A program made the translations under genes and the position numbers. From positions 558,001-622,000 of the forward strand of contig NZ_JAOWKZ010000002.1 in NCBI RefSeq assembly GCF_025751495.1: a stretch of DNA of 64,000 nucleotides, in the 5' to 3' direction. The stretch is from Albidovulum litorale. Lineage in GTDB: Bacteria > Pseudomonadota > Alphaproteobacteria > Rhodobacterales > Rhodobacteraceae. The notes below the pieces were generated by a model that saw only the letters and a program-made list of their open reading frames with translations, had not been told where the DNA came from and did not search any database. This document shows, piece after piece, positions 7,603-43,147 of this stretch; position 1 is the stretch's first letter; the number at the start of each line of letters is the position of its first letter.

Positions 7603-9102
7603 ATGAAAGAACTGTCACACTGGATCAACGGCGAACACGTCAAGGGCACCTCTGGCCGGTTCGCTGATGTCTTCAACCCCGCCACTGGCGAGGTCCAATC
7701 CAAATGCCCGATGGCGTCTGCCGCTGAAACCGAGGCAGCAATCGCCAACGCCGCCGCTGCACAGGTCGAATGGGGCGCAACCAACCCGCAGAAGCGCGCG
7801 CGCGTTATGATGGCCATGGTCGGCCTGATGAACCGCGACATGGACAAGCTGGCCGAGGCGCTCTCGCGCGAACATGGCAAGACCCTGCCGGACGCGAAGG
7901 GCGACCTGCAGCGTGGTCTTGAGGTCATCGAATACTGCATCGGCGCGCCGCAGATGCTGAAGGGTGAGTTCACCGACAGCGCCGGCCCCGGCATCGACAT
8001 GTATTCGATGCGCCAGCCGCTGGGCGTCGTCGCTGCGATCATGCCCTTCAACTTCCCGGCCATGATGCCCTTGTGGCATGTCGGCCCGGCGCTGGCTTGC
8101 GGCAACGCAGTCGTGCTGAAGCCGTCCGAGCGTGACCCCTCGGTGCCGCTGATGCTGGCTGAACTGTTCGTCGAGGCTGGTCTGCCGAAGGGCGTCTTCC
8201 AGGTCGTCAACGGCGACAAGGAGGCGGTCGATACGCTGCTCGACAGCGAGACCATCCAGGGCGTCAGCTTCGTCGGCTCCACCCCCATCGCGCATTACAT
8301 CTACAGCCGCGCCACCGCGAACGGCAAACGCGCGCAGTGCTTCGGCGGCGCCAAGAACCACATGATCGTCATGCCAGATGCCGACATGGATCAGGCGGCC
8401 GACGCGCTCGTCGGCGCGGGCTTCGGCGCGGCGGGCGAACGCTGCATGGCGGTGTCGGTTGCGGTGCCGGTGGGCGATGCGACCGCCGACAAGCTGATCG
8501 AAAAGCTCGTGCCGCGGATCGAGAAGCTGCGCGTCGCCCCCTATACCGACGGCAATGACGTGGACTTCGGCCCCGTCGTCACCGGCGAGGCAAAGAAGCG
8601 TATCCTCGGCCTGATCAATTCCGGCGTCGAACAGGGCGCGGAGCTTGTCGTCGACAACCGCGACTTCTCGCTTCAGGGCTATGAGAATGGCTTCTTCGTC
8701 GGACCGCATCTCTTCGACAAGGTCACGAAGGACATGGACATCTACAAGACCGAGATCTTCGGCCCGGTTCTGTCCGTTGTTCGCGCCAAGACCTATGAAG
8801 AGGCGATCGGCCTTGCCATGGATCACGAATACGGCAATGGCACCGCGATCTTTACCCGCGACGGCGACACGGCGCGCGACTTCGCGCACCGCATCAATAT
8901 CGGCATGGTGGGTATCAACGTGCCGATCCCGGTGCCGCTGGCCTACCACACCTTCGGCGGCTGGAAGAAGTCGATGTTCGGCGACCTGAACCAGCACGGC
9001 CCGGACAGCTTCAAGTTCTACACGCGGACCAAGACCGTGACGGCCCGCTGGCCGTCCGGCATCAAGGAAGGTGGCGAATTCAACTTCAAGGCAATGGACT
9101 GA
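7603..9102 (+). CDS. mmsA: Methylmalonate-semialdehyde dehydrogenase (CoA-acylating)
   Basis: Oxidises methylmalonate semialdehyde (valine, thymine, myo-inositol breakdown) to propionyl-CoA with NAD and CoA. The 499-residue length and the N-terminal HWINGEHVKGTSGR are typical of MmsA. The ALDH fold shows PFNFPAMMPLW, the family-specific FGGAKNHM loop replacing the usual Glu motif, and catalytic Cys281 in GERCMA. The start at ATG 7603 has a GGGAGG site 8 bases upstream. Codons before this ATG could extend the frame but are not conserved family residues. The divergent LysR gene is its likely regulator. Confidence 0.94.
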   Translation: MKELSHWINGEHVKGTSGRFADVFNPATGEVQSKCPMASAAETEAAIANAAAAQVEWGATNPQKRARVMMAMVGLMNRDMDKLAEALSREHGKTLPDAKGDLQRGLEVIEYCIGAPQMLKGEFTDSAGPGIDMYSMRQPLGVVAAIMPFNFPAMMPLWHVGPALACGNAVVLKPSERDPSVPLMLAELFVEAGLPKGVFQVVNGDKEAVDTLLDSETIQGVSFVGSTPIAHYIYSRATANGKRAQCFGGAKNHMIVMPDADMDQAADALVGAGFGAAGERCMAVSVAVPVGDATADKLIEKLVPRIEKLRVAPYTDGNDVDFGPVVTGEAKKRILGLINSGVEQGAELVVDNRDFSLQGYENGFFVGPHLFDKVTKDMDIYKTEIFGPVLSVVRAKTYEEAIGLAMDHEYGNGTAIFTRDGDTARDFAHRINIGMVGINVPIPVPLAYHTFGGWKKSMFGDLNQHGPDSFKFYTRTKTVTARWPSGIKEGGEFNFKAMD

Positions 9103-9105
9103 CCG

Positions 9106-9519
9106 TCACGCCGGGGGCTTCATCCGCCCCGTCGGCATGGATGCGATCACATGGGCCGGGGGCAGTTCTGTCTCCGGCCCAATTATTTCCGGACGGATCG
9201 GCGCGGGGTTGCGCACCGCCTCGGCCAAGGCACCCCGATGCTGCCGCGCCTTCATACATTCGAAACTGCCAGCCCGGAAGGCGCGGCAGGCTTCGGGGCG
9301 CATATCGTAGATGCCACAGACAAGGCGCGCGTCATCTGTGCGCGCAAGCTGGGCGCAATGCCCTCCGCACATTTTCATGAACCGGCGGCCGTCGTGGTCA
9401 TTGGTGAGGTTTTCGGGGATGGCCCTCGCCCGGTCTTCGGGCATCAGGGCGATATAGCGGTCATGGGTGCCAAAACAGCAGGCGCCGCAGGTCGTGCAGT
9501 CGATATCTGAGGGGGACAA
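9106..9519 (-). CDS. YkgJ-family cysteine cluster protein
   Basis: A 137-residue protein with the CxxCGxCC metal-cluster motif near the N terminus (DCTTCGACC) and later conserved Cys residues (MCGGHC, VCGIYDMRPEACR), as in the YkgJ/Fe-S oxidoreductase-like family. A zinc or iron-sulphur centre is predicted; the function is unknown. A TTG at 9519 is the likely start because an in-frame stop codon lies directly before it, so no upstream start is possible in this frame. The gene is convergent with mmsA, with only 3 bases between the stops. Confidence 0.8.
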   Translation of the reverse strand: MSPSDIDCTTCGACCFGTHDRYIALMPEDRARAIPENLTNDHDGRRFMKMCGGHCAQLARTDDARLVCGIYDMRPEACRAFRAGSFECMKARQHRGALAEAVRNPAPIRPEIIGPETELPPAHVIASMPTGRMKPPA

Positions 9520-9677
9520 TCATTGGGCTCATGGCAGGCGCCGGTCCGGTCGGCCCTTTGCCTCCGGGCGATGCGCCGGCGCGGCATTTAGGTTGGGGCC
9601 ATGAAAACCGCAAGCCCTGAAAACTTGCCCAAAGCGTCCACCTCTGCTCAACTGACGAAAACCATGGGGGCGCGGCG

Positions 9678-10805
9678 ATGTCAGAGCCTGATTTCACCAT
9701 CGGGGTCGAAGAGGAATACCTGCTCGTCGACCGGGACACACTCGCGCTCGCCGTCGCGCCCGAGGCGCTGATGGATGCCTGCAAAGCTGAAATGTCCGAT
9801 CAGGTCAGCCCGGAGTTTCTGCAATGCCAGATCGAGGTCGGGACCCGCGTCTGCAAGGATGTCGGACAGGCGCGGGACGAGTTGCGCAAGCTCCGCGCCT
9901 GCGTTTCCCGCAATGCCGCCAAGCACGGGCTTGCGCCCATCGCGGCCTCCTGTCACCCGTTCTCCGACTGGAAGGACCAGCACCATACCGACAAGGAGCG
10001 TTACAACGACCTGCGCCGCGACCTTGGCGGCGTGGCGCGGCGGATGCTGATCTGCGGCATGCATGTCCATGTCGGTATCCCGGCCGAGGATATGCGCATC
10101 GACCTCGTCAATCAGCTTTCCTATTTCCTGCCGCATCTTCTGGCGATGTCGACCTCTTCCCCGTTCTGGCAGGGCGACGATACCGGGCTCGCTAGCTACC
10201 GGCTGACGGTCTTCGACAACCTGCCCCGCACCGGACTGCCGCCGAAATTCTCAAGCTGGGCGGAATACAAGCGCACCGTGGACGCGCTGGTGCATATGAA
10301 ACTGATCGAGGATTCGTCGAAGATCTGGTGGGACCTGCGCCCTTCGGCGCGCTTCCCGACCATCGAAAGCCGCATCTGCGACGTCCAACCGCGGCTTGAG
10401 ACGACACTGTCGCTCGCCGCCGCCACGCAGTGCCTCACGCGGATGCTCTGGCGGCTCATGCGCAAGAACCAGCGCTGGCGGCACTACGACAACTTCCTTC
10501 TGGAAGAAAACCGCTGGAGGGCCCAGCGATATGGCATCACCGGCGGCCTGATCGACTTTGGCCGGCTGGAGGTGATCGACTTCTCGACGCTGATGGACGA
10601 GCTGATAGAAACCGTTGCGGAGGATGCCGAGGTTCTGGAATGCACGGCCGAGATCGAGGCCCTGCGCGGCCTCCTCGACACCGGCACCAGCGCCGACCGC
10701 CAACGGATCGTTCATGCCGATGCTGTCGAGGCCGGGGATGACGGGCCCGCCGCCATGCGGGCAGTCGTGCACAGCCTGATCGAAGAGTTCCACCACGACC
10801 TCTGA
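9678..10805 (+). CDS. YbdK-type carboxylate-amine ligase (GCS2 family)
   Basis: A 375-residue member of the glutamate-cysteine ligase 2 family. It opens with [13 protein letters not shown], the metal and substrate-binding Glu cluster, and continues with the GMHVHVGIP core and a SRICDVQP motif. Members ligate an amino acid to an amine or amino acid in an ATP-dependent way; E. coli YbdK has weak gamma-glutamylcysteine activity, but the physiological substrate is not established. It is a monocistronic-looking gene on the plus strand with its own start at ATG 9678, after about 150 bases of non-coding sequence. Confidence 0.88.
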
Positions 10806-32156: not shown

Positions 32157-32261
32157 TGAGGCTCACTTAGGGATACGGGGGCGATCCAATCACAAACCGC
32201 CCCCCTTGTGCAGGGATTCGTTCTGACGCAGGGTCTGCGCCGGGCGGATACGGGCAGGAAA

Positions 32262-33437
32262 ATGAAAGCAGGGCTGGCATTCTTGGTGGCGGGCTATGTG
32301 CTCAGCCAGTTCTACCGGGCCTTCCTGGCGGTGCTGACGCCGGTTCTGGGCCGCGAGATTGGCGCGAGTCCCGGCGACCTCGCCATATCATCGGGCATCT
32401 GGTTCCTGATCTTCGCGATGATGCAGATGCCGGTCGGGGCTGCGCTGGACCGGGTCGGGCCGCGTCTGACGGCGTCACTCCTGCTCGGGATCGGGGGCGG
32501 CTGCGGGGCGCTGGTCTTTGCCGCCGCCGAAGGTCCGTGGGCCGTTCATGTCGCCATGGCGCTGATCGGGATCGGCTGTTCGCCGGTCCTGATGGCGTCC
32601 TATTACATCTTTGCACGGATCTATTCCCCGGCGGTTTTCGGCACGCTTGCGGGTGCTATCATCGGTGTCGGATCGCTCGGCAATATCGCGGGGGCCGCGC
32701 CGCTCGCATGGCTGGTTGCCGCGGTGGGCTGGCGCCCGGCACTGATCGGGCTTGCGGCTGTCACCTTCGTCATCGCGCTTGCCCTATGGGTCTTCGTCCG
32801 CGATCCCGCGCGGGCCGAAACCCCGGCTGCAGGACGAGGATCGGTCCTTGATATCCTCAGGCAACCGGGGCTTTGGGCGATCCTGCCCCTGATGGCCGTC
32901 GCCTATGCGCCTGCGGCGGCGATACGGGGGCTTTGGGCCGGCCCCTATCTTGCCGAGGTCTTCGGCGCGGATGGTCTAACCATCGGGCGCGTGACGCTTC
33001 TGATGGCGCTGGCGATGGTCGCGGGCAACTTCGCCTACGGCCCCCTTGACCGGATATTCGGCACCCGGAAATGGGTGGTCTTCGTGGGCAACCTTGCCGC
33101 GGCCGTATGCCTTCTGATCCTCGCCCTCCATCCCGGCGGCGGTATCTGGACGGCGGCACTTCTGTTGGCGGCGCTTGGCCTCTTCGGGGCGTCTTTTCCT
33201 GCGATCATGGCGCATGGGCGCGCCTTCTTTCCGGCCCATCTGACCGGCCGGGGGGTGACATTCCTGAACATGTTCGGGATCGGCGGGGCGGGCATCCTGC
33301 AATTCGCCTCGCGCCCAGTCTATGAAAACGCGTCTGGTACGCCGGAAGAGGTGTTCCGGCTTTTGTTCCTGTTCTTTCTGGTGCCGCTCGCCATCGGCCT
33401 CGTTCTTTACCTTTTCAGCCACGACCGCACTGACTGA
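32262..33437 (+). CDS. MFS transporter
   Basis: A 391-residue inner-membrane carrier with about 12 hydrophobic helices, starting MKAGLAFLVAGYVLSQFYRAFLAVL at ATG 32262. The loop between helices 2 and 3 (MQMPVGAALDRVGPRLT) is the MFS motif A variant. Substrate cannot be inferred. It ends about 50 bases before the pseudaminic acid cluster on the same strand, but no functional link is evident. Confidence 0.85.
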   Translation: MKAGLAFLVAGYVLSQFYRAFLAVLTPVLGREIGASPGDLAISSGIWFLIFAMMQMPVGAALDRVGPRLTASLLLGIGGGCGALVFAAAEGPWAVHVAMALIGIGCSPVLMASYYIFARIYSPAVFGTLAGAIIGVGSLGNIAGAAPLAWLVAAVGWRPALIGLAAVTFVIALALWVFVRDPARAETPAAGRGSVLDILRQPGLWAILPLMAVAYAPAAAIRGLWAGPYLAEVFGADGLTIGRVTLLMALAMVAGNFAYGPLDRIFGTRKWVVFVGNLAAAVCLLILALHPGGGIWTAALLLAALGLFGASFPAIMAHGRAFFPAHLTGRGVTFLNMFGIGGAGILQFASRPVYENASGTPEEVFRLLFLFFLVPLAIGLVLYLFSHDRTD

Positions 33438-33487: not shown

Positions 33488-34195
33488 ATGAGCGCCATCG
33501 CCATCCTTCCCGCCCGGGGCGGGTCCAAGCGTATCCCGCGCAAGAATATCCGCCTCTTTGCCGGACGCCCGGCCATCGGCTGGCCGATCCGCGCGGCACG
33601 GGACAGCGGCTGTTTTTCGCGGATCGTCGTGACGACGGATGATGCCGAGATCGCCGAGGCCGCGCGGGCCGAGGGGGCCGAGGTGCCGTTCCTACGCGAT
33701 CCGGCGCTGGCTGACGATCATACCGGCACGACCGAGGTGATCCGCGATGCCGTGATGCGGCTTGGGCTGGGGCCGGACGTGCCCGTCTGCTGCATCTACG
33801 CGACCGCGTTCTTTGTGACGGCCACCGATCTGGCCGAGGGGCGGGACCTGCTTGCCTCCGGTGCCAAATGGTGCCTGTCGGCCGGTGAGTACCGCACACC
33901 GATCGACCGGGCCTACCGGCGCGACGGGGCGCGACTTGTGGCGCGCGATCCGGCGAAGATGCCGATGCGTTCTCAGGATCTGGAGCCCGCCTTTTTCGAC
34001 GCGGGCCAGTTCTACTGGGCGCGGGCCGCGACATGGTCGGACCCTGCGGAGCGGGTCTGGGACGGTGCGGCGGGCGTCATCCTTCCGGCCGAGCGTTGCA
34101 TCGACATTGACACGGAAGCCGACTGGCATCTGGCCGAGACCATGTTCAGGGTTCTGGGCCTTGGGGGCAATGATGCGGTTCCTGATCCGCACTGA
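33488..34195 (+). CDS. pseF: Pseudaminic acid cytidylyltransferase
   Basis: Activates pseudaminic acid with CTP to give CMP-pseudaminic acid, last step of the nucleotide-sugar pathway. The 235-residue protein opens with ILPARGGSKRIPRKNIR, the CTP-binding signature of NeuA/KdsB/PseF enzymes, and has VVTTDDAEIAEAA and FFDAGQFYWA, typical of PseF. AGGAGACC precedes ATG 33488. Its 3' end overlaps the PseG-PseH gene by 23 bases. NeuA is the alternative, but the neighbours are all Pse-type. Confidence 0.9.
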   Translation: MSAIAILPARGGSKRIPRKNIRLFAGRPAIGWPIRAARDSGCFSRIVVTTDDAEIAEAARAEGAEVPFLRDPALADDHTGTTEVIRDAVMRLGLGPDVPVCCIYATAFFVTATDLAEGRDLLASGAKWCLSAGEYRTPIDRAYRRDGARLVARDPAKMPMRSQDLEPAFFDAGQFYWARAATWSDPAERVWDGAAGVILPAERCIDIDTEADWHLAETMFRVLGLGGNDAVPDPH

Positions 34196-35720
34196 CGGCG
34201 ATCTTAAGATCGGTGGCGGCCATGTGATGCGCTGCCTGACGCTGGCCGCGGAGGCCCGGCGGCGCGGCCATGGTGTGACCTTTGTCACGGCCGGAACGCC
34301 GGGCACAATGGCGGGCCGCATCCGCAGCGAAGGGTTTGACGTGACCGAGGTCACCCCGGTCCCTCACGACCCCGCAGCCGATCCGATGGCTCCTGCCCAT
34401 GCCGGATGGCTCGCTGCACCTTGGCAGACGGATGCCGAAATCACCGCGCGGGCTGCGCAGGCGTTTGGTGCGGATTGGGTGGTCGTCGATCACTACGGGT
34501 TGGACGCGCGATGGGCCGGACGGCTGCGGCAAGCCCGGCCCGATCTCCGCATCCTCGCATTGGACGACCTCGACGACCGGCCGCTTGGCGCCGATCTGGT
34601 GCTTGACCAGACACGGCTTGACGGAGCGCGACGCTATCCGGGCCCGGCGCAGATGATCGGACCGGATTTTGCATTGTTGCGGCCGGAATTTGCCAGCGCC
34701 CGAGAGGGCGCTCTTCAGCGGCGGGGTGGCCCCGTGAAACGCGTTCTGATCGCCCCGGGAATGGGCGATGCCGCCGGACTCGCCCCGCTCGCGCTCGATG
34801 CGCTGGCGGGTTTTCCCGATCTTGCCATCGACGTGGTCATGGGATCGGCAAGCCAGAGCCGCGCAGAGGTCGAGGCGAGGGTCGCCGGGCGACAGGGCGC
34901 GGCATTGCATCTCGACGCAACCGATATGGCAGGCCTGATGACTGCCGCCGATCTCTGCGTCGGCGCTGGCGGAATGACCAGTTGGGAACGCTGCTGCCTT
35001 GGCCTGCCAACCGTCGCGGTCGCCGTGGCCGACAACCAGCAACCCGCGCTTGCGGGACTGGCCGGGGCCGGGGCGGTCATCGCCCTTGATCTGGAAACAG
35101 CGCGGAACGGCGCGCTGGAACCTGCAATTGCGCGGGCCATCGCGGAGGCATCTACCCTCTCTTCCGCTGCGTCCCGCCTTTGCGATGGCGCGGGCGCGGT
35201 GCGTGTCACCGATGCGCTGGAAGGCGCATTCCGGCCGGTGACCAAGGGTGATGCACGTCTTCTGTTCGACTGGCGCAACCGGCCCGATATCCGGGCCGTT
35301 AGCTTGAATACCGGAGAGCTGGTCTGGGACGATCATGTCAACTGGCTTGAGCGCGCCCTGGCCCGAGCCGATGCCCTCTTCCTAATCTGGTCCGAGGGCG
35401 GCCGCGATCTTGGCCATGCCAGCGCCCGCGACCTTGGTGGCGGGACATGGCAATGGAGCTTCTATATCGGTGCCGAAGACGCGCCGAAGGGCGCGGGCGG
35501 GCGGATGATGGCCAGCTTTGCCCGAACACTCTTCGCAAGACCGGGCGTCGATGCGCTGCGCGCCGAGGTGGTGGCGGACAATCCGGCCTCGGCGGCGCTG
35601 CATCGCCGTCTTGGCTTTCGCGAGACAGGTCGAGATGGCGGCGCGCTTGTCTTCACGCTCACCAGATGCGATCACGAGGCGCTACTGGGACTTGGCAATG
35701 AAGGACAACGGGATGGCTGA
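34173..35720 (+). CDS. pseG: PseG-PseH fusion: UDP-sugar hydrolase plus N-acetyltransferase
   Basis: A 515-residue two-domain protein. The first 330 or so residues are PseG, the GT-B-fold hydrolase that removes UDP from UDP-2,4-diacetamido-trideoxy-altrose. Marks are RTDGDLKIGGGHVMRC, VVVDHYGLD, LDDLDDRPL and GAGGMTSWERCCLGLP. The last 160 or so residues are a GNAT domain (RPVTKGDARLLFDWRN, DNPASAALHRRLGFRETG) matching PseH, which acetylates the 4-amino group. The two steps are consecutive in the pathway (H then G), so the fusion would channel the intermediate. Start ATG 34173 (or 34170), overlapping pseF. Confidence 0.88.
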   Translation: MRFLIRTDGDLKIGGGHVMRCLTLAAEARRRGHGVTFVTAGTPGTMAGRIRSEGFDVTEVTPVPHDPAADPMAPAHAGWLAAPWQTDAEITARAAQAFGADWVVVDHYGLDARWAGRLRQARPDLRILALDDLDDRPLGADLVLDQTRLDGARRYPGPAQMIGPDFALLRPEFASAREGALQRRGGPVKRVLIAPGMGDAAGLAPLALDALAGFPDLAIDVVMGSASQSRAEVEARVAGRQGAALHLDATDMAGLMTAADLCVGAGGMTSWERCCLGLPTVAVAVADNQQPALAGLAGAGAVIALDLETARNGALEPAIARAIAEASTLSSAASRLCDGAGAVRVTDALEGAFRPVTKGDARLLFDWRNRPDIRAVSLNTGELVWDDHVNWLERALARADALFLIWSEGGRDLGHASARDLGGGTWQWSFYIGAEDAPKGAGGRMMASFARTLFARPGVDALRAEVVADNPASAALHRRLGFRETGRDGGALVFTLTRCDHEALLGLGNEGQRDG

Positions 35721-36768
35721 GACATTCGGGATCGCGGGCCGGGCCATCGGGGCGGAGCATTCGCCCTATATCATCGCCGAACTGTCCGGAAACCATAACG
35801 GCGATCTCGGCCGGGCGCTGGCGCTGGTCGATGCCGCTGCCTCGACCGGCGCGGATGCGGTGAAGTTGCAGACCTATACCGCCGACACGATCACGCTGGA
35901 TGTCGACCGGCCTGAATTCCACATTCATGGCGGGCTCTGGGACGGGCGATCCTTGCACGAGCTTTATCAGGAGGCTTCGACGCCCTGGGACTGGCATGAA
36001 GCCCTCTTCGACCGGGCGCGCGGCCATGGGCTCCATTGCTTTTCCTCGCCCTTCGATCCGACGGCAGTGGATTTCCTTGAAACCCTCGACACGCCTGCCT
36101 ACAAGATCGCCTCTTTCGAACTGGTCGATACGCCATTGATCCGCAAGGCGGCGGCAACCGGCAAACCGCTGATCATGTCCACCGGCATCGCCAATTATGC
36201 CGAGATCGAGGATGCGGCCCGTGCGGCGCGCGAGGGCGGCGCGGATGGCTTCGCGCTTTTGCACTGCATCTCGGCCTACCCAGCGAAGCCCGAGGAGATG
36301 CGGCTTGGCACGATCGAGGCCTTGTCACAGGCTTTCGGCGTGCCCATTGGCCTCTCGGACCACACGCTCGGCTCGGCCGTCGCGGTCGCGGCGATTGCAC
36401 GGGGGGCCTGTATCATCGAGAAACACATGACGCTGGCGCGCGCCGATGGCGGGCCGGATGCCGAGTTTTCGCTGGAACCGGACGAGTTCCGCCAGCTTGT
36501 CGCCGATTGCCGGATGGCCCATGCCGCGCTTGGCCCTGCAAAACACGACCGCAAGGGCGTTGGCGGGGCGAATGCGCAGTTCCGCCGGTCGCTTTACGTG
36601 ACCGCCGATGTCGCCAAGGGCGAGGTTCTGACCGACGCGAATGTGCGCTCCGTCCGCCCGGGTCTGGGCCTTGCGCCGAAGCACCTTCCGGACGTTCTGG
36701 GCCGGCGTGCCGCCCGGGCGTTGACGCGCGGCGAGCCGATTGATTGGAGCATGATCGCTCAGGATTGA
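35713..36768 (+). CDS. pseI: Pseudaminic acid synthase
   Basis: Condenses the 6-deoxy altrose derivative with phosphoenolpyruvate to give pseudaminic acid. A 351-residue NeuB-family protein: TIM barrel (about 1-270) with AELSGNHNGDLGRAL, DAVKLQTYTADTITLD and KHMTLARADGGPDAEFSLEP, then a C-terminal SAF/antifreeze-like domain (about 285-345). The HIHGGLWDGRSLHELY stretch favours PseI over sialic or legionaminic acid synthases. AAGGA precedes ATG 35713, which overlaps the previous stop; ATG 35698 is an alternative. Its 3' end overlaps a convergent gene by 10 bases. Confidence 0.92.
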   Translation: MAETFGIAGRAIGAEHSPYIIAELSGNHNGDLGRALALVDAAASTGADAVKLQTYTADTITLDVDRPEFHIHGGLWDGRSLHELYQEASTPWDWHEALFDRARGHGLHCFSSPFDPTAVDFLETLDTPAYKIASFELVDTPLIRKAAATGKPLIMSTGIANYAEIEDAARAAREGGADGFALLHCISAYPAKPEEMRLGTIEALSQAFGVPIGLSDHTLGSAVAVAAIARGACIIEKHMTLARADGGPDAEFSLEPDEFRQLVADCRMAHAALGPAKHDRKGVGGANAQFRRSLYVTADVAKGEVLTDANVRSVRPGLGLAPKHLPDVLGRRAARALTRGEPIDWSMIAQD

Positions 36769-37856
36769 GACTTGCGGGTCAGCAACCGGCGCTCGATCGC
36801 CTCGGCTGCGCGGTCGAGATTGCCGTCGAGATCGCCAAAGCGCGACCGGATGTGGTCATAGACCGGGCCGGGCGTCTTGAGGCTGTCGACGAAAGCTTCC
36901 AGCCCCTGAAGATCGCCGATCTGGGGCAGCTCAGCGAACAGAGGCAGGTTTTCGGCAAACACCGCCGCGGGCTTGCCGGAATAGATGCAGTCGAGAACCG
37001 TCGTGGATGTGGGTGAGATCATTCCGTGGGCAAGATCGATGGCATCGTGGATTGTCGCCTTGGCCAGCGGACCACCGTAATAGTGCGAGAACATCACGTT
37101 CGGATGCTTCCGCGCGAGGTCCCGGTCATGCGCCCTGTGGTTGCTGCGCACCTTACCACGATGTGAACGGATGATGATGCCGAGGTCGGGATGACGGCTT
37201 AGCGCCTTGTCCATCAGGTCGTAGAAATGGCCGATATGGTCCTTGGTATAGCGGCCCTGACCCCAGCGGAACGACTGGCAGACCAAGAGCCGCTTCGGGT
37301 AGCGGGCAACCCAGTCCGACACCTCCTCGCCCCACCGGTTGCCGGGAAGGATGTTCTGCTTGGTGAAGCCGACCACCTCGACCCGCCCCGCCGTTTCAGG
37401 TGTGAACAGCGCGCGGTTGTCGCCAAGGGGTTCCCAGAAAAGGATCTGCTGGGAATAGTACTCCATCGGCCCTTCGATCTTCCGGGCATTCACCCCGACC
37501 TGATAGGCGCCGTGCTGAAGAAAGATCGACTGCTGGCCGATCTTGGCCATATAGGTTCCGCGCTGCTTGCGCGTCGTCGTGTCCCAATAGGGATCGGCAA
37601 TCGTCAGCACCGCGTCCGCCTCGCGGATGTTGCGCTGGTAGAGGAGCTTCATGCGAAGTTTCGAGGCGGGTTCAGGGGCAAAACCCTCTTTGTCGAAGAC
37701 ACCGCGGAGGCGCACTTCCTTGCGCAGGAGCTTGGAATAGACAAGCGCCCGAACGGTCACACGGCCACGTTTGTGGAGGCGCGCCAATACCGGATAGGTG
37801 CTTTCGAAATCCGGCATCCCGTTCAGATAGGCCAGCAAGACGGGCTTTTCAGCCAT
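36759..37856 (-). CDS. TagF/capsule-type GT-B transferase in the Pse locus
   Basis: A 365-residue protein resembling CDP-glycerol glycerophosphotransferases and related surface-polysaccharide transferases. Supporting pieces are FLQHGAYQVG in the middle and a C-terminal donor-binding region with SPTSTTVLDCIYSGKPAAVF. It is the third gene of the minus-strand pseB-pseC transcript; its ATG at 37856 overlaps the pseC stop by 8 bases, so it is coupled to that pathway. It may transfer pseudaminic acid or another sugar to a surface acceptor. The exact reaction is unknown. Confidence 0.72.
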   Translation of the reverse strand: MAEKPVLLAYLNGMPDFESTYPVLARLHKRGRVTVRALVYSKLLRKEVRLRGVFDKEGFAPEPASKLRMKLLYQRNIREADAVLTIADPYWDTTTRKQRGTYMAKIGQQSIFLQHGAYQVGVNARKIEGPMEYYSQQILFWEPLGDNRALFTPETAGRVEVVGFTKQNILPGNRWGEEVSDWVARYPKRLLVCQSFRWGQGRYTKDHIGHFYDLMDKALSRHPDLGIIIRSHRGKVRSNHRAHDRDLARKHPNVMFSHYYGGPLAKATIHDAIDLAHGMISPTSTTVLDCIYSGKPAAVFAENLPLFAELPQIGDLQGLEAFVDSLKTPGPVYDHIRSRFGDLDGNLDRAAEAIERRLLTRKSQS

Positions 37857-38991
37857 CGAGCGCCCCGGCAAGCGCGGCCACGACCCGGTCCTGGTCGGCC
37901 TCGGTCAGGCCGGGATAGAGCGGCAGGCTGATGGCCCGTTCATAATAAGCTTCGGCCACCGGGAAATCGCCCCGGGCAAAGCCACGTTTACGCCAGAACG
38001 GTTGGGTGTGGACCGGAATGTAGTGGACGTTCACACCGATGCCCGCTTCGCGCAGGCGAGCGAAGACACGGGCGCGGTCCTCGACCTGTATCGGGTAGAG
38101 ATGCAGCGCCGAGTGGCTGTCGGGGCTCTGGCGCGGCAGGGTCAGCGCCATATTGCCCAGAAGCCGGTCGTAGCGGCGGGCGATCTCGTGCCGTTTCGCG
38201 ACGAACTCTGAAAGCCGCGTCATCTGCGACGCGCCAAGCGCCGCCTGCAACTCCGTCATACGGTAGTTGTAGCCAAGCGCGACCTGCTCATAGTACCAGC
38301 CGCCCTCGGAGGCACCTTCCATCAACGCAGTTTCTCGGGTGACGCCATGCGAGCGGTGCAGTTCCATCCGGCTTGCCAGCCCCGCGTCGTTCGTCGTGGC
38401 GCAGCCGCCCTCGGCGGTGGTGATGATCTTCACGGGATGGAAGGAAAAGACGCAGATGTCGGAATGGGCGCAGTCCCCGACCGGGCGGTCGCGGTAGCTG
38501 GCGCCGATCGCGTGCGAGGCGTCCTCGATCACCTTAAAGCCATATCGCGCCGCCAGCGCGCCGATGGCGGCCATGTCCGCGCTCTGACCGGCGAAATGGA
38601 CGGGGATCACGATTTTTGGCAGCCTGCCCGCCGCCTCGGCGCGGTCGAGTTTCGCCTCCAGCGCCTTCGGGCACATGACATAGGTCTCAGGGTCGATATC
38701 GACGAAATCGACGTCGGCGCCGCAATAGAGCCCGACATTCGCCGAGGCGACGAAGGTATTGGGTACGGTCCAGAGCCAGTCGCCGGGCCCAAGGTCAAGC
38801 GCCATGCAGGCGATGTGCAAGGCCGAAGTTGCCGAATTCACAGCGATGGCATGTGCCGCACCGGTCGCCTCGCGGATTGCCGCCTCAAATCGCGGTACGG
38901 CGGGCCCCTGGGTCAGAAAGTCGGACCGCAGGACGGCGGTGACGGCTTCGACGTCCTCATCCGAAATGTCCTGCCTGCCGTAGGGGATCAT
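37849..38991 (-). CDS. pseC: PseC, UDP-4-amino-sugar transaminase
   Basis: PLP-dependent aminotransferase (380 residues) that adds the 4-amino group to the keto sugar made by PseB. Starts MIPYGRQDISDEDVEAV at ATG 38991, which overlaps the pseB stop (TGATG). Sugar aminotransferase marks are VNSATSALHIA, VPNTFVASAN, EDASHAIGASY and the Schiff-base lysine in SFHPVKIITTAEGG. Specific similarity is to the PseC branch (SDFLTQGPAVPRFE). It is co-transcribed with pseB and a transferase gene. Confidence 0.92.
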   Translation of the reverse strand: MIPYGRQDISDEDVEAVTAVLRSDFLTQGPAVPRFEAAIREATGAAHAIAVNSATSALHIACMALDLGPGDWLWTVPNTFVASANVGLYCGADVDFVDIDPETYVMCPKALEAKLDRAEAAGRLPKIVIPVHFAGQSADMAAIGALAARYGFKVIEDASHAIGASYRDRPVGDCAHSDICVFSFHPVKIITTAEGGCATTNDAGLASRMELHRSHGVTRETALMEGASEGGWYYEQVALGYNYRMTELQAALGASQMTRLSEFVAKRHEIARRYDRLLGNMALTLPRQSPDSHSALHLYPIQVEDRARVFARLREAGIGVNVHYIPVHTQPFWRKRGFARGDFPVAEAYYERAISLPLYPGLTEADQDRVVAALAGALDG

Positions 38992-39989
38992 CAATAGGTC
39001 CCGATCTTCTCGGCGTTCTTAGCGATCCACTTCTGCAGCGCCTCGACGCTCATCCAGTCGGGATTGTTGTCCGACGCATAGTGGAAGCCTTCGGCCACCT
39101 TGCGCCCGTTCTTGATCCGCACCGGATCGCGCGACCAGTTATGGATCGCCGGGATGATCTTGAAATGGTCGTCGTATTCGAACGTGTGGTCGGAATCCTC
39201 CGGCCCGATCATCTGTTCGTGCATTTTCTCGCCGGGTCGCGTGCCGACGATGTCATGCGCCGCCTCAGGCGCAACCGCACGGGCGATGTCGAGGATGTTC
39301 ATCGACGGGATCTTGCGCACATAGATCTCGCCGCCGACCATGTCCTCCATCGCGTGCCAGACCAGTTCCACGCCCTGTTCCAGCGTGATCATGAACCGGG
39401 TCATGCGCGGGTCGGTGATTGGCAGCCTGCCCTTGGCTTTCAGCGACTGGAACAGCGGTATGACTGAGCCGCGCGACCCCATGACATTTCCGTACCGCAC
39501 GACGGAGAAGCGGCACTTGTCGGCACCGGAATAGGAGTTTCCGGCGACGAAAAGCTTGTCCGAGGCGAGCTTGGAGGCACCATAGAGGTTGATCGGGCTC
39601 GACGCCTTGTCGGTCGAAAGCGCGACGCAGCGTTTCACACCCTTGTCGATACAGGCGTCGATGATGTTCATCGCGCCATTGACGTTGGTCTTGATACATT
39701 CGAACGGGTTGTATTCCGCCGTCGGCACGATCTTGGTCGCGGCGGCATGGACGACATAGTCGATCCCGTCCATCGCGCGATAAAGACGCTCGCGGTCGCG
39801 CACATCGCCGATGAAGAACCGCACCTCCGGCAGGTGACCGTAAAGCTTGGCCATCTCCCACTGTTTCATTTCATCGCGGGAATAGATGATGATGCGCGAG
39901 GGCTTGTAGTGCGCGAGCGTCATCGGCACAAATTGCGACCCGAATGAGCCGGTACCGCCGGTCAGAAGTATTTTGGAACCCGTCAGCAT
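38991..39989 (-). CDS. pseB: PseB, UDP-GlcNAc 4,6-dehydratase (inverting)
   Basis: First step of pseudaminic acid synthesis: UDP-GlcNAc 4,6-dehydration with C5 inversion. A 332-residue short-chain dehydrogenase/reductase with the NADP loop TGGTGSFGSQF, the Ser/Tyr/Lys active region LSTDKASSPINLYGASKLASDK, and the PseB-specific ATKIVPTAEYNPFECIKTNV. ATG 39989 is preceded by GAAGGAG; an in-frame start 39 bases upstream is not conserved. It begins the minus-strand arm pseB-pseC-transferase, convergent with pseF-pseGH-pseI. Confidence 0.95.
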   Translation of the reverse strand: MLTGSKILLTGGTGSFGSQFVPMTLAHYKPSRIIIYSRDEMKQWEMAKLYGHLPEVRFFIGDVRDRERLYRAMDGIDYVVHAAATKIVPTAEYNPFECIKTNVNGAMNIIDACIDKGVKRCVALSTDKASSPINLYGASKLASDKLFVAGNSYSGADKCRFSVVRYGNVMGSRGSVIPLFQSLKAKGRLPITDPRMTRFMITLEQGVELVWHAMEDMVGGEIYVRKIPSMNILDIARAVAPEAAHDIVGTRPGEKMHEQMIGPEDSDHTFEYDDHFKIIPAIHNWSRDPVRIKNGRKVAEGFHYASDNNPDWMSVEALQKWIAKNAEKIGTY

Positions 39990-40382
39990 GGCTTTGCTCC
40001 TTCGGAAAGTCCTGCGGCCAGAGACCAACCCCCCGCGCGCCGCGTGATCCGTTTCCTAGCCCGGCCCACCTGCCTTGTCCACTGTCCGAGGCGTATGCAG
40101 GCGGACGTACACCGATCAGTATCCCCGCCCCGACGGATTCCCGGAACAGGGCCAACTGATCCCCCTCCAGCGCATCTTGTAATGGCTGCTTGTAGGTCTT
40201 AATCGACGTTCTGTAGTCAATGTAAAACTTTTGGTGGCCCAGACGAGAATCTCCGTGGCGGCGGCCAGTGCGGCAGACAGATTTTAGAACGTCGATAATC
40301 TTGACCGAGGTGCATTTTGTGCTCTGCTACACAGCCGCGAGACACTGTTGCCACCGGGCACAATCCGGATTGAAGGTACGCC
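39990..40382. other. Intergenic region between pseB and a GT2 gene, with a spaced inverted repeat
   Basis: About 390 bases with no convincing ORF. It presumably holds the promoters of the divergent pseB arm and the GT2 arm. ATCGACGTTCT at 40202-40212 and its exact reverse complement AGAACGTCGAT at 40286-40296 form an 11-base dyad 73 bases apart. A TTGACC (40300-40305) is a possible -35 for the GT2 gene. The region is AT-richer than its surroundings. Confidence 0.5.
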
Positions 40383-41267
40383 ATGAAGATCAGCGTGGTG
40401 ATCACTTGCTACAACAAGGAAGATTACATCGCGCAGGCGATCACGTCGGCATGTAAGCAGGCGGGCGTATACGAAGTTATTGTCGTCGATGATTGTTCCA
40501 CCGACCGCTCTGTCGCCATCGCACGCGCAACTGATGGCATTGTACTCATAGCCAGCGCTGTAAACAAAGGGGTAAGCACCAGCACCCGGATCGGGGTTGA
40601 ACGTGCTCGGGCAGGTGGCGCCGATTACGTCGTGCTGCTCGACGGCGACGATGTTCTTGCTGAAGATGCTGTCAGGTATTTTTCACAAGTCATCGAATGC
40701 TCGGATGTGCCCGCGATTTATTCGTCGATCTCCCGGGACCGGGTCGAAGACATGCGGCTGAAGGCTCATTCCTGTGACCTTGACGCGGGCTACCGGGTCG
40801 AGAACGCGCCGCTCGACTACTATCTGGGCCGACTAAACCGCCCCTTGGCAACCACCGCTCTATGCGCCCGGCCCGAATTGATTGTCCGGCACCTGACGGA
40901 CAAGGCGCGCGTGCAGGATCATCAGATTGCGTTCTCGATTTGCCACAGTGCCGATCGGATCGCGATCTCGGACGCCGTGACCCACTATTGTTCTGCCGCC
41001 CGCGCAGGCGGCAACATCAGTGAAGATGTGGTCGCGATTCTGACGGCCAGCGTTATCGTCTATGCTAATACATTTGATCTGGTGAAGCGTCACACCCTGT
41101 TCAAAGCCTACCAGAAACGCGCCTATACCCGCGGCCTGAGGCTTCGTCATCATGGCGTTCTGCCGAAGTCTCTGGCGCTGGCGCTATATATGATTACGCC
41201 CTTCAAGACCTTGCTACCCGCCAGAATGCGACATGCCATTATCATGACAATCAGTCACCACATCTGA
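40383..41267 (+). CDS. Glycosyltransferase family 2
   Basis: A 294-residue GT-A-fold transferase. The N terminus (MKISVVITCYNKEDYIAQAI) and EVIVVDDCSTDRSV are classic GT2, and the metal-binding DxD is seen in LLDGDDVLAEDAV. The last 40 residues are basic and hydrophobic, perhaps for membrane contact. Beside the pseudaminic acid cluster it likely builds the glycan to which that sugar is attached. It is followed 116 bases later by the GT29-like gene on the same strand. Donor and acceptor are unknown. Confidence 0.88.
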   Translation: MKISVVITCYNKEDYIAQAITSACKQAGVYEVIVVDDCSTDRSVAIARATDGIVLIASAVNKGVSTSTRIGVERARAGGADYVVLLDGDDVLAEDAVRYFSQVIECSDVPAIYSSISRDRVEDMRLKAHSCDLDAGYRVENAPLDYYLGRLNRPLATTALCARPELIVRHLTDKARVQDHQIAFSICHSADRIAISDAVTHYCSAARAGGNISEDVVAILTASVIVYANTFDLVKRHTLFKAYQKRAYTRGLRLRHHGVLPKSLALALYMITPFKTLLPARMRHAIIMTISHHI

Positions 41268-41383: not shown

Positions 41384-42019
41384 GTGACCACGCCGCGCAC
41401 ATCTCCAGTTAATTTCTACATCGCGCGTCTGCTGCGGAGGGAAGCGCCACTTGCGGCCTTGTCCGTGCGGCGCGAAGACCTGATGGCCGATGTATCCGGC
41501 AAGCGCGTGGCCCTCGTCGGCAATGCGCGGTCGCTGGCTGATCGCGATGAAGGGGCCGCGATCGACGCCGCCGATCTCGTGATCCGCATTAACCGGGCGC
41601 CGATGCCCGCTTCGCGGACACATGGGACCCGGACCGATTGGCTGGCGCTCGCGACCTCCATCGGGGTCGATGATCTCGACCGTATCAAACCTGACCGCAT
41701 CCTGTGGATGTCGCACAAGCGCAAGCGCCTGCAATGGGCGATCGCCACGTCGGACGGGTTCTACCTGCACCCGCTTACCGACTGGGCAGCCCTTCGCGAC
41801 CGGCTTGGCGCACCACCGACGACCGGGTTGATGATGATCGACCTGCTCGCATCCAGCGGACTCGCCTCACTCCGCCTCCACGGCTTCGACTTCTTCGCCT
41901 CGCTCTCGCTCACCGGTTCACGCCGGGCGGATCAGGTTCCACATGATTTCGCGGCTGAGAAAGCCTTTGTCGAGGCGTTGATGGCGCGCGATCCGCGCGT
42001 CACACAGGCGGGCGCGTGA
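41384..42019 (+). CDS. GT29 sialyltransferase-like protein
   Basis: A 211-residue protein from GTG 41384 (GGAG nine bases upstream; ATG 41345 is an alternative). It carries the marks of GT29 sialyltransferases: an L-motif-like stretch (about 42-72) with VALVGNARSL and IDAADLVIRINRAP, an S-motif-like stretch (about 144-169) with PPTTGLMMIDLL and LRLHGFDFF, and His187-x4-Glu192 as the VS motif (HDFAAE). It has no signal peptide or membrane helix. In this locus CMP-pseudaminic acid, not CMP-sialic acid, is made, so it may be a pseudaminyltransferase. That specificity is inference. Confidence 0.7.
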   Translation: MTTPRTSPVNFYIARLLRREAPLAALSVRREDLMADVSGKRVALVGNARSLADRDEGAAIDAADLVIRINRAPMPASRTHGTRTDWLALATSIGVDDLDRIKPDRILWMSHKRKRLQWAIATSDGFYLHPLTDWAALRDRLGAPPTTGLMMIDLLASSGLASLRLHGFDFFASLSLTGSRRADQVPHDFAAEKAFVEALMARDPRVTQAGA

Positions 42020-42124: not shown

Positions 42125-43147
42125 ATGGGCTACAAGGTCGTTGTTGCCGGCGCCACGGGGAATGTGGGCCGCGAAATGCTGAACATCCTCGCCGAGCGGG
42201 AATTCCCCGTCGACGAGATCGCCGCACTGGCGTCGCGCCGGTCGCTGGGCACCGAGGTTTCGTTCGGCGACAAGACTGTGAAGACCAAGGACATCGAGGG
42301 TTTCGACTTCACCGGCTGGGACATCGCGCTTTTTGCCATCGGGTCCGAGGCGACCAAGAAATACGCCCCCATCGCCGCCTCGCAGGGCTGTGTGGTGATC
42401 GACAACTCCTCGCTCTACCGCTACGACCCGGAAATCCCGCTCGTGGTGCCCGAGGTGAACCCCGAGGCCGTCGAGCAGTACAAGAAGAAGATGATCATCG
42501 CCAACCCCAACTGCTCGACCGCGCAGATGGTGGTGGCGCTTAAGCCCCTGCATGACCGCGCCCGGATCAAGCGCGTCGTCGTGTCAACGTATCAGTCGGT
42601 GTCGGGTGCCGGGAAAGAAGGCATCGACGAGCTCTGGGACCAGACCAAGGGCATGTATGTGCCGGGTCAGGAAGTCGCGCCGAAGAAGTTCTCCAAGCAG
42701 ATCGCCTTCAACGTCATTCCCCATATCGACGTCTTCATGGAAGACGGTCAGACCAAGGAAGAATGGAAGATGGTCGCCGAGACCAAGAAGATCCTCGACA
42801 AAACGATCAAGGTCACCGCGACCTGCGTCCGCGTCCCGGTCTTTGTCGGCCATTCCGAGGCGGTCAACATCGAGTTTGAGGATTTCCTCGACGAAGATGA
42901 GGCCCGCGACATCCTGCGTGAAGCGCCGGGCGTCATGGTCGTCGACAAGCGCGAGAACGGTGGCTACGTGACTCCGGTCGAATGCGTCGGCGACTACGCG
43001 ACCTTCGTCAGCCGCATCCGCCAGGACGGCACGATCGAGAACGGGCTGAACCTCTGGTGCGTGTCGGACAATCTGCGCAAGGGTGCCGCGCTGAATGCCG
43101 TGCAGATTGCCGAGACGCTGGGCAATCGCTGCCTGAAGAAGGGCTGA
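42125..43147 (+). CDS. asd: Aspartate-semialdehyde dehydrogenase
   Basis: Reduces aspartyl phosphate to aspartate semialdehyde with NADPH, at the branch to lysine, threonine and methionine. 340 residues, with the nucleotide loop GATGNVGREML, catalytic Cys130 in NPNCSTAQM, and VSTYQSVSGAGKEGIDELW. Later RVPVFVGHSEAVNIEF includes the catalytic His. TAGGAG precedes ATG 42125. It stands alone, followed by a hairpin at 43166. Confidence 0.96.
   Translation: MGYKVVVAGATGNVGREMLNILAEREFPVDEIAALASRRSLGTEVSFGDKTVKTKDIEGFDFTGWDIALFAIGSEATKKYAPIAASQGCVVIDNSSLYRYDPEIPLVVPEVNPEAVEQYKKKMIIANPNCSTAQMVVALKPLHDRARIKRVVVSTYQSVSGAGKEGIDELWDQTKGMYVPGQEVAPKKFSKQIAFNVIPHIDVFMEDGQTKEEWKMVAETKKILDKTIKVTATCVRVPVFVGHSEAVNIEFEDFLDEDEARDILREAPGVMVVDKRENGGYVTPVECVGDYATFVSRIRQDGTIENGLNLWCVSDNLRKGAALNAVQIAETLGNRCLKKG

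Follow-up and report, generated by a model that had tools for sequence, protein, structure and literature searches.

A bacterial GT29 homologue beside a pseudaminic acid gene cluster in Albidovulum litorale: genomic context and a predicted CMP-Kdo donor

Introduction

The bacterial members of glycosyltransferase family GT29 were surveyed by Petit et al. (2018; PMC5811610), who analyzed 23 sequences (19 of them alphaproteobacterial), derived the eukaryotic sialyltransferases from bacterial GT29s and considered function in Bacteria not predictable from their trees. The description of GT29 as a family found mainly in eukaryotes, given in a first-pass annotation of the locus studied here, is partly outdated in view of that set. 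Among the papers listed in our literature searches, which mostly excluded subscription journals, there was no further work on the function of bacterial GT29s and nothing usable on the lipopolysaccharide (LPS) core of Rhodobacter or Paracoccus.

Among the animal enzymes, an HxxxxE motif with a catalytic His has been described for human ST3Gal1, in which two motif III residues, H299 and Y300, are also essential, since alanine at either position inactivates the enzyme (PMC6884586). In Arabidopsis, genetic evidence without in-vitro activity indicates that rhamnogalacturonan II (RG-II) depends on the GT29 protein RCKT1/MGP2 for its Kdo (PMC11288761). Bacterial enzymes handling the sugars in question include Acinetobacter baumannii KdoT, which adds a third Kdo before the GT4 enzyme GnaT acts (PMC12856342), and the pseudaminic acid (Pse) transferase KpsS1 of GT118 (PMC12887879); LpcC and WadC are treated in PMC3349745.

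Here we describe a GT29 homologue encoded next to a Pse gene cluster in Albidovulum litorale, compare its locus with those of its relatives and infer its putative sugar donor.

Genomes and Searches

The window is the whole stretch of 64,000 nucleotides that was analyzed (contig NZ_JAOWKZ010000002.1, positions 558,001 to 622,000). Relatives of its GT29 protein were called at E ≤ 1e-5 in a family sample of 394 genomes, and 51 of these had one. The close clade comprises 36 of the 51 genomes, A. litorale included, with best copies 47-100% identical to the window protein (47-72% in the 35 further genomes); copies in the remaining 15 genomes were 26-41% identical. A second copy, 42% identical, was present in genome G444. 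The genomic context was analyzed in two sets of loci, namely 80 named loci kept out of 150 encoding a relative, from which records of the own genome were possibly left out, and 37 close-clade loci, which have at least 11 records in common with the named set. The nearest named relatives belonged to Defluviimonas, followed by Frigidibacter, Thioclava, Cereibacter and Paracoccus, among others.

Pse genes were counted as neighbors at 60% identity or more. A match to PF03102, the family that includes PseI, LegI and NeuB, was regarded as being of PseI strength at 280 bits or more, a cut set by us. Since several long branches meet in the phylogenetic tree of the GT29 proteins, its bootstrap values were unsettled and its deep split was weakly supported (59/94), only the starred tree groups were used.

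The GT29 Homologue and Its Motifs

The following features were identified in the gene and its product:

41384..42019 (+): GT29 (sialyltransferase-family) homologue, 211 aa, with a GTG start, a PF00777 match and a family profile that hits solved GT29 enzymes
41519..41593 (+): core of motif L (GNARSL...VIRIN, residues 46-70), which aligns with the ST3Gal1 sequence VGNSGNL...VLRMN
41816..41887 (+): motif S (PTTG...GF, residues 145-168), with G148, G167 and F168 invariant
41942..41959 (+): motif VS, residues 187-192, HDFAAE, with H187 and E192 invariant and H187 as candidate catalytic base

The gene starts with GTG at 41384 and its stop codon ends at 42019, the frame being open already from 41276. 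Its product matched PF00777 (Glyco_transf_29) at 33.3 bits (E 4.4e-8, curated cut-off 23) and matched no NCBIfam family. The same model had a single match in the own genome and no match in 14 control genomes, and was positive in two of the 385 genomes of a class sample, the own genome being one of the two. Because the match spans residues 39-93 only, a 24-row alignment of diverse family members was built, and PDB sequences were searched with the resulting profile. The top eight of the 11 matches were mammalian GT29 enzymes, with ST3Gal1 first (E 1.7e-10), followed among the distinct enzymes by ST8SiaIII (2.4e-7), ST6GalNAc2 (2.7e-6) and ST6Gal1 (1.3e-5); the other three (E 0.03-0.17) were by name a chlorophenol-reduction regulator and cyclic-nucleotide-binding proteins, and GT42 entries were absent from the matches. 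The assignment to GT29 made in the first-pass annotation is thus confirmed at the level of sequence, as are the L-like, S-like and HxxxxE motifs that it reported in a compact protein, which by eye has no membrane anchor.

Nine residues (G46, N47, R68, N70, G148, G167, F168, H187 and E192) are invariant in the 24-row alignment. In the profile search, motif S was aligned only weakly, in a second domain of the matches to ST8SiaIII and ST6GalNAc2. The 211 residues, as read from the sequence, contain no cysteine and hence no L/S cysteine pair. For motif III (H-Y-aromatic-E/D, HYYE type) no counterpart was found in the window protein, and a Tyr or Trp between GFD and motif VS was present in none of the 36 parsed copies (of 37) of the close clade and none of the 78 parsed copies (of 80) of the named set. 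Since motif III typifies the characterized sialyltransferases, we keep the name GT29 homologue rather than sialyltransferase.

The short length and the missing motif III, at a place where alanine substitutions inactivate human ST3Gal1 (PMC6884586), could indicate a catalytically dead or regulatory GT29 remnant, and one relative (in G766) is in fact split over two frames. If function had simply been lost, motif III would be expected to disappear but the other residues would not be expected to stay conserved, whereas the His and Glu of motif VS and the Asn of motif L are invariant in 24 copies and the gene is retained beside asd in most named loci (see below). We regard a dead remnant as distinctly improbable. 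The split copy itself (locus L067, 9555-9983 (-) and the adjoining frame, with pieces 66% and 72% identical) probably reflects a frameshift or an assembly error.

The Chromosomal Slot and Its Neighbors

The window genes around the GT29 gene are:

32208..33437 (+): MFS-type transporter, as judged by eye from its sequence, at the left edge of the slot, with a homologue upstream of GT29 in relatives
33488..34195 (+): PseF, CMP-Pse synthetase (TIGR03584, 237.2 bits, cut-off 205.7)
34122..35720 (+): PseG with a fused PseH-like acetyltransferase part (TIGR03590, 227.4 bits, cut-off 153.55)
35695..36768 (+): PseI, pseudaminic acid synthase (TIGR03586, 490.4 bits, cut-off 340.25)
36759..37871 (-): protein of no assigned family, perhaps a transferase of GT-B type (weak TIGR04396 match, 16.4 bits, cut-off 125)
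37849..38994 (-): PseC (TIGR03588, 546 bits, cut-off 423.5)
38991..40028 (-): PseB (TIGR03589, 524.8 bits, cut-off 407.75)
40383..41267 (+): GT2 glycosyltransferase (PF00535), occupying the place of GT4 in most relatives
42125..43147 (+): asd, encoding aspartate-semialdehyde dehydrogenase (NF011456, 521.4 bits), at the right edge of the slot

Scores above the NCBIfam cut-offs were obtained for PseF, PseG, PseI, PseC and PseB, and the PseH-like part, which shares a single polypeptide with PseG, stays below its own cut-off (TIGR03585, 55.4 bits, cut-off 93.1). The locus therefore encodes the CMP-Pse pathway, as had been annotated. It also holds that the own genome has no NeuB beyond PseI and no NeuA: the single match to PF03102 was PseI, and the two matches to PF02348 were PseF and a protein of KdsB type. 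The GT2 gene has a G+C content of 0.564, vs 0.630 for the window.

The flanks of the slot recur widely in relatives. The asd gene accompanies GT29 on one stretch in 68/80 named and 24/37 close-clade loci, and an MFS homologue lies upstream on the same strand in 61/80 named loci. The usual neighbor is a GT4 gene, which precedes GT29 on its strand by no more than 2.5 kb in 67/80 named and 19/37 close-clade loci; its N-terminal sequence suggests the name LpcC-like, which we take as a working label, and Pfam assigns it to the GT4 type only. Less often, waaA precedes GT29 on its strand at a distance of up to 3 kb (7/37 close-clade loci). Nine of the 37 close-clade loci carry GT29 and a PS_pyruv_trans-type gene side by side. 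One locus (L085, genome G535) has GT29-like and PS_pyruv_trans-like parts in one open frame (8543-10027 (-)), which may mark a functional pair. GT2 homologues near GT29 are rare (1/80 named, 0/37 close-clade loci), and so are Pse genes within 10 kb (3/80 and 0/37).

The three named loci with Pse genes are those of D. aestuarii (L089) and of two MAGs (L090 and L165). All three are among the 13 named loci that lack the GT4 gene, which is missing in the window too. The nature of the exchange is seen in D. salinarum, whose DNA can be aligned with the window as far as 33425 and then again from 41414; between these flanks D. salinarum has about 1.1 kb with the GT4 gene vs 8.0 kb here. In the window lineage the Pse cluster and the GT2 gene thus stand in place of the GT4 gene, and the cluster would have been swapped in beside a pre-existing GT29 gene. 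A search for a GT4 remnant in the window by tblastn returned chance-level matches only (E 0.13 or worse), and no close GT4 orthologue was found elsewhere in the own genome, the best match having 37% identity over the C-terminal part (five genomes searched).

In the tree, the window protein pairs with that of D. aestuarii (100/90) within a starred set of nine, six of which have the GT4 gene, and L165 is placed in a different branch. The Pse genes have therefore reached the slot at least twice. Slots of envelope genes are exchanged often; a functional link to GT29 could also explain this repeated arrival, which is the best remaining point in favor of such a link, though the rest of the evidence points in the opposite direction.

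The window protein could also be an envelope glycan enzyme of GT29 fold with another donor, such as a sugar bound to UDP or GDP or an unknown CMP-sugar: motif III is gone, the plant GT29 protein GALT29A is by its name a galactosyltransferase (PMC11288761), and the GT4, GT2 and PS_pyruv_trans neighbors provide a glycan context in which the sugar is unnamed. On the other hand N47, N70, the GF in motif S and the His and Glu of motif VS are invariant in 24 copies, which fits the CMP donor of the solved enzymes, and the linkage to waaA in 7/37 loci likewise speaks against this alternative, which we rate as doubtful.

Ulosonates Expected in the Carriers

Of the 36 genomes in the close clade, that of A. 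litorale counted, 33 gave no match to PF03102. The three positives were the own genome, G408, where the synthase lies on a different contig from GT29, and G635, where the two share a contig but are about 365 kb apart. Among the 358 other genomes of the family sample, 116 had a match and 242 had none, so that the NeuB family is rarer in the close clade than in the rest (Fisher p 0.0019, kinship ignored). Matches of PseI strength were no commoner with the close clade (3/36) than without it (33/358). Among 50 records chosen from the 80 named loci (MAGs included, completeness not stated), 43 had no NeuB-family synthase, one of the seven positives covering only 66 profile positions; Paracoccus denitrificans DSM 413 is among the 43. 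So is D. salinarum, whose GT29 is 84% identical and which has neither the Pse cluster nor NeuB. Carriers without PF03102 are therefore without the known route to Pse, Leg or Neu5Ac.

These results bear on the earlier proposal that the window GT29 uses CMP-Pse, which they do not support: the clade sits mostly in the same slot without Pse genes, and in genomes mostly without a nonulosonate synthase. CMP-Pse as inferred from the neighborhood alone is rejected because, as the comparison with D. salinarum showed, the neighborhood is a replacement. What could still be argued is that GT29 transfers Pse from CMP-Pse after a donor switch upon arrival of the cluster. The cluster starts about 1.4 kb upstream of GT29, Pse genes also lie near GT29 in three further loci, one of them (L165) in another tree branch, the usual GT4 gene is missing in all four of these loci, and the own genome has no Maf-type match. 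Yet PseI-strength synthases are not enriched with the clade, those of G408 and G635 are remote from GT29, and no residue is common to the four Pse-linked copies and missing from 72 others. The nearest to such a residue, D99, occurs in all four and also in 7/72; position 85, exclusively Asp in the 24-row alignment, is Gly in L090. CMP-Pse is thus an unlikely donor of the window GT29, and a switch of donor on arrival of the cluster seems improbable to us.

A WaaA-type protein (PF04413) was found in 51/51 GT29 genomes, including all 36 of the close clade, and a PF02348 cytidylyltransferase in 50/51, the exception being an 89% complete genome. Five of five strong PF02348 matches tested (own and four NeuB-less genomes) scored over the cut-off of the CMP-Kdo synthetase model NF003950 (own protein 353.4 bits, cut-off 234), and the same five KdsB-type proteins reached 134-153 bits with the kdsB equivalog TIGR00466 (own protein 147 bits, cut-off 155.2; three of the five partial). 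With NeuB mostly absent and WaaA and PF02348 near-universal, CMP-Kdo would be the sole activated ulosonate expected in nearly all carriers. Two NeuB-less genomes, G547 (contig C29, locus L177) and G642 (contig C36, locus L178), encode an extra PseF-like cytidylyltransferase at 77-78 bits (cut-off 205.7).

The Sister Clade beside NeuB-Type Synthases

Eight distant GT29 copies (L071-L078), 30-35% identical to the window protein, have a NeuB-type synthase no more than about 3 kb away and waaA-type genes at a distance of about 3-4 kb; two of the latter were confirmed by PF04413, with further confirmation by position. Three of the synthases were tested and scored 341-352 bits with the NeuB model (equivalog cut-off 399.65) and 231-242 bits with the PseI model (cut-off 340.25); their product is therefore probably Neu5Ac, Leg or a related sugar and not Pse. 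The place of motif III reads TYY in all eight parsed sister-clade copies (of nine), and four of the five parsed among seven other distant copies have Tyr or Trp there. The L071-L078 proteins are candidate LPS sialyltransferases of GT29 type within the same bacterial family.

Its family membership and this sister clade could suggest that the window GT29 is a sialyltransferase proper with CMP-Neu5Ac or CMP-Leg as donor. However, the own genome's only NeuB-family match is PseI, 33/36 clade genomes have none, and the motif III Tyr retained in the NeuB-linked copies is missing from the window clade; we hold this alternative to be highly improbable. The loss of motif III coincides with the loss of the pathway, as a change of donor would predict.

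A Candidate Pse Transferase in the Window

GT29 probably keeps its ancestral donor in the window strain, and Pse would then be moved by another protein, for which the product of 36759-37871(-) is probably the best candidate. Encoded between pseI and pseC, it has no Pfam match, and a PDB search found no relatives. Homologues were found in six of 56 chosen genomes (36 with PF03102 at 280 bits or more, five weaker, 15 without), all six among the 36, where only the synthases of the window and L165 are confirmed as PseI. Five of the six (own included) lie within 5 kb of the synthase, and two of the homologue matches contain one internal stop. Since 30 of the 36 genomes with a PseI-strength synthase have no homologue, the protein is no general Pse transferase. 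It is 89-90% identical in the Pse clusters of L089 and L090, which occupy the same slot, and no homologue was found in the L165 locus. The own genome has no match to PF01973, the family of the known Pse transferase Maf.

The Putative Donor and Role of the GT29 Protein

Our preferred reading, held with modest confidence, is that the window protein is an inverting GT29 of LPS core assembly which most likely adds Kdo from CMP-Kdo to the core. The donor would be CMP-Kdo, the acceptor the LPS core and the protein cytosolic, with H187 as putative catalytic base; the GT4 neighbor of most relatives would extend the sugar added by GT29. Kdo appears more likely than Pse because the genomes of most close relatives seem to be without the synthesis of sialic-acid-type sugars. 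Further support comes from the supply of CMP-Kdo (PF02348, NF003950 and PF04413), from the linkage, in part of the clade, to waaA and to the GT4 gene (whose function is unproved), from the precedent of RCKT1, from the analogy with KdoT and GnaT and from the contrast in motif III with the NeuB-linked sister clade.

Several observations count against the Kdo reading. The waaA gene is near in just 7/37 loci, and the KdsB-type proteins fall slightly under the TIGR00466 cut-off. The argument from absence covers the NeuB-type route, which uptake of ready-made sialic acid would escape, and the PseF-like extra protein occurs in two NeuB-less genomes. The loss of motif III, a motif reported for the bacterial set of PMC5811610, could mean lost activity or a different donor. 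Finally, a functional link could also account for the arrival of Pse genes near GT29, which took place in at least two lineages (that of the window and L089, and that of L165).

Comparison with Known Systems

GT29 is a known family, and what is new here is the donor predicted for this clade from its sequences and their context. Within one bacterial family the GT29 copies fall into a NeuB-adjacent group and a group mostly without a nonulosonate synthase; different donors are therefore predicted for the two, and the question is testable in Paracoccus denitrificans, a harmless laboratory species. The case also cautions that the donor of a transferase is not to be read off its local neighbors.

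Like the window protein, the alphaproteobacterial GT29s of Petit et al. (2018) are without a transmembrane anchor or L/S cysteines; all four motifs are reported for the bacterial set of that paper (PMC5811610), whereas the window clade has no motif III, and its genomes are mostly without nonulosonate synthases. The mammalian enzymes ST3Gal1, ST8SiaIII, ST6GalNAc2 and ST6Gal1 share motifs L, S and VS and the profile match with the window protein but differ in their CMP-Neu5Ac donor, their cysteine pair, motif III and a longer catalytic domain. Maf and KpsS1 (GT118) handle Pse and belong to families other than GT29. Acinetobacter KdoT and GnaT resemble the proposed system, by analogy only, in adding an extra Kdo independently of WaaA followed by a GT4 step, and KdoT differs in belonging to another family, modeled as GT-B (PMC12856342).

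RCKT1/MGP2 is likewise a GT29 protein, with genetics pointing to a role in Kdo transfer, although it is a membrane-anchored plant protein acting on the pectin RG-II (PMC11288761). As a tentative extension of our reading, the GT29s of this clade may be LPS-core Kdo transferases and thus a second bacterial use of the fold beside sialyl transfer; if so, together with RCKT1, Kdo transfer would be an old, perhaps the ancestral, activity of GT29, from which animal sialylation was derived.
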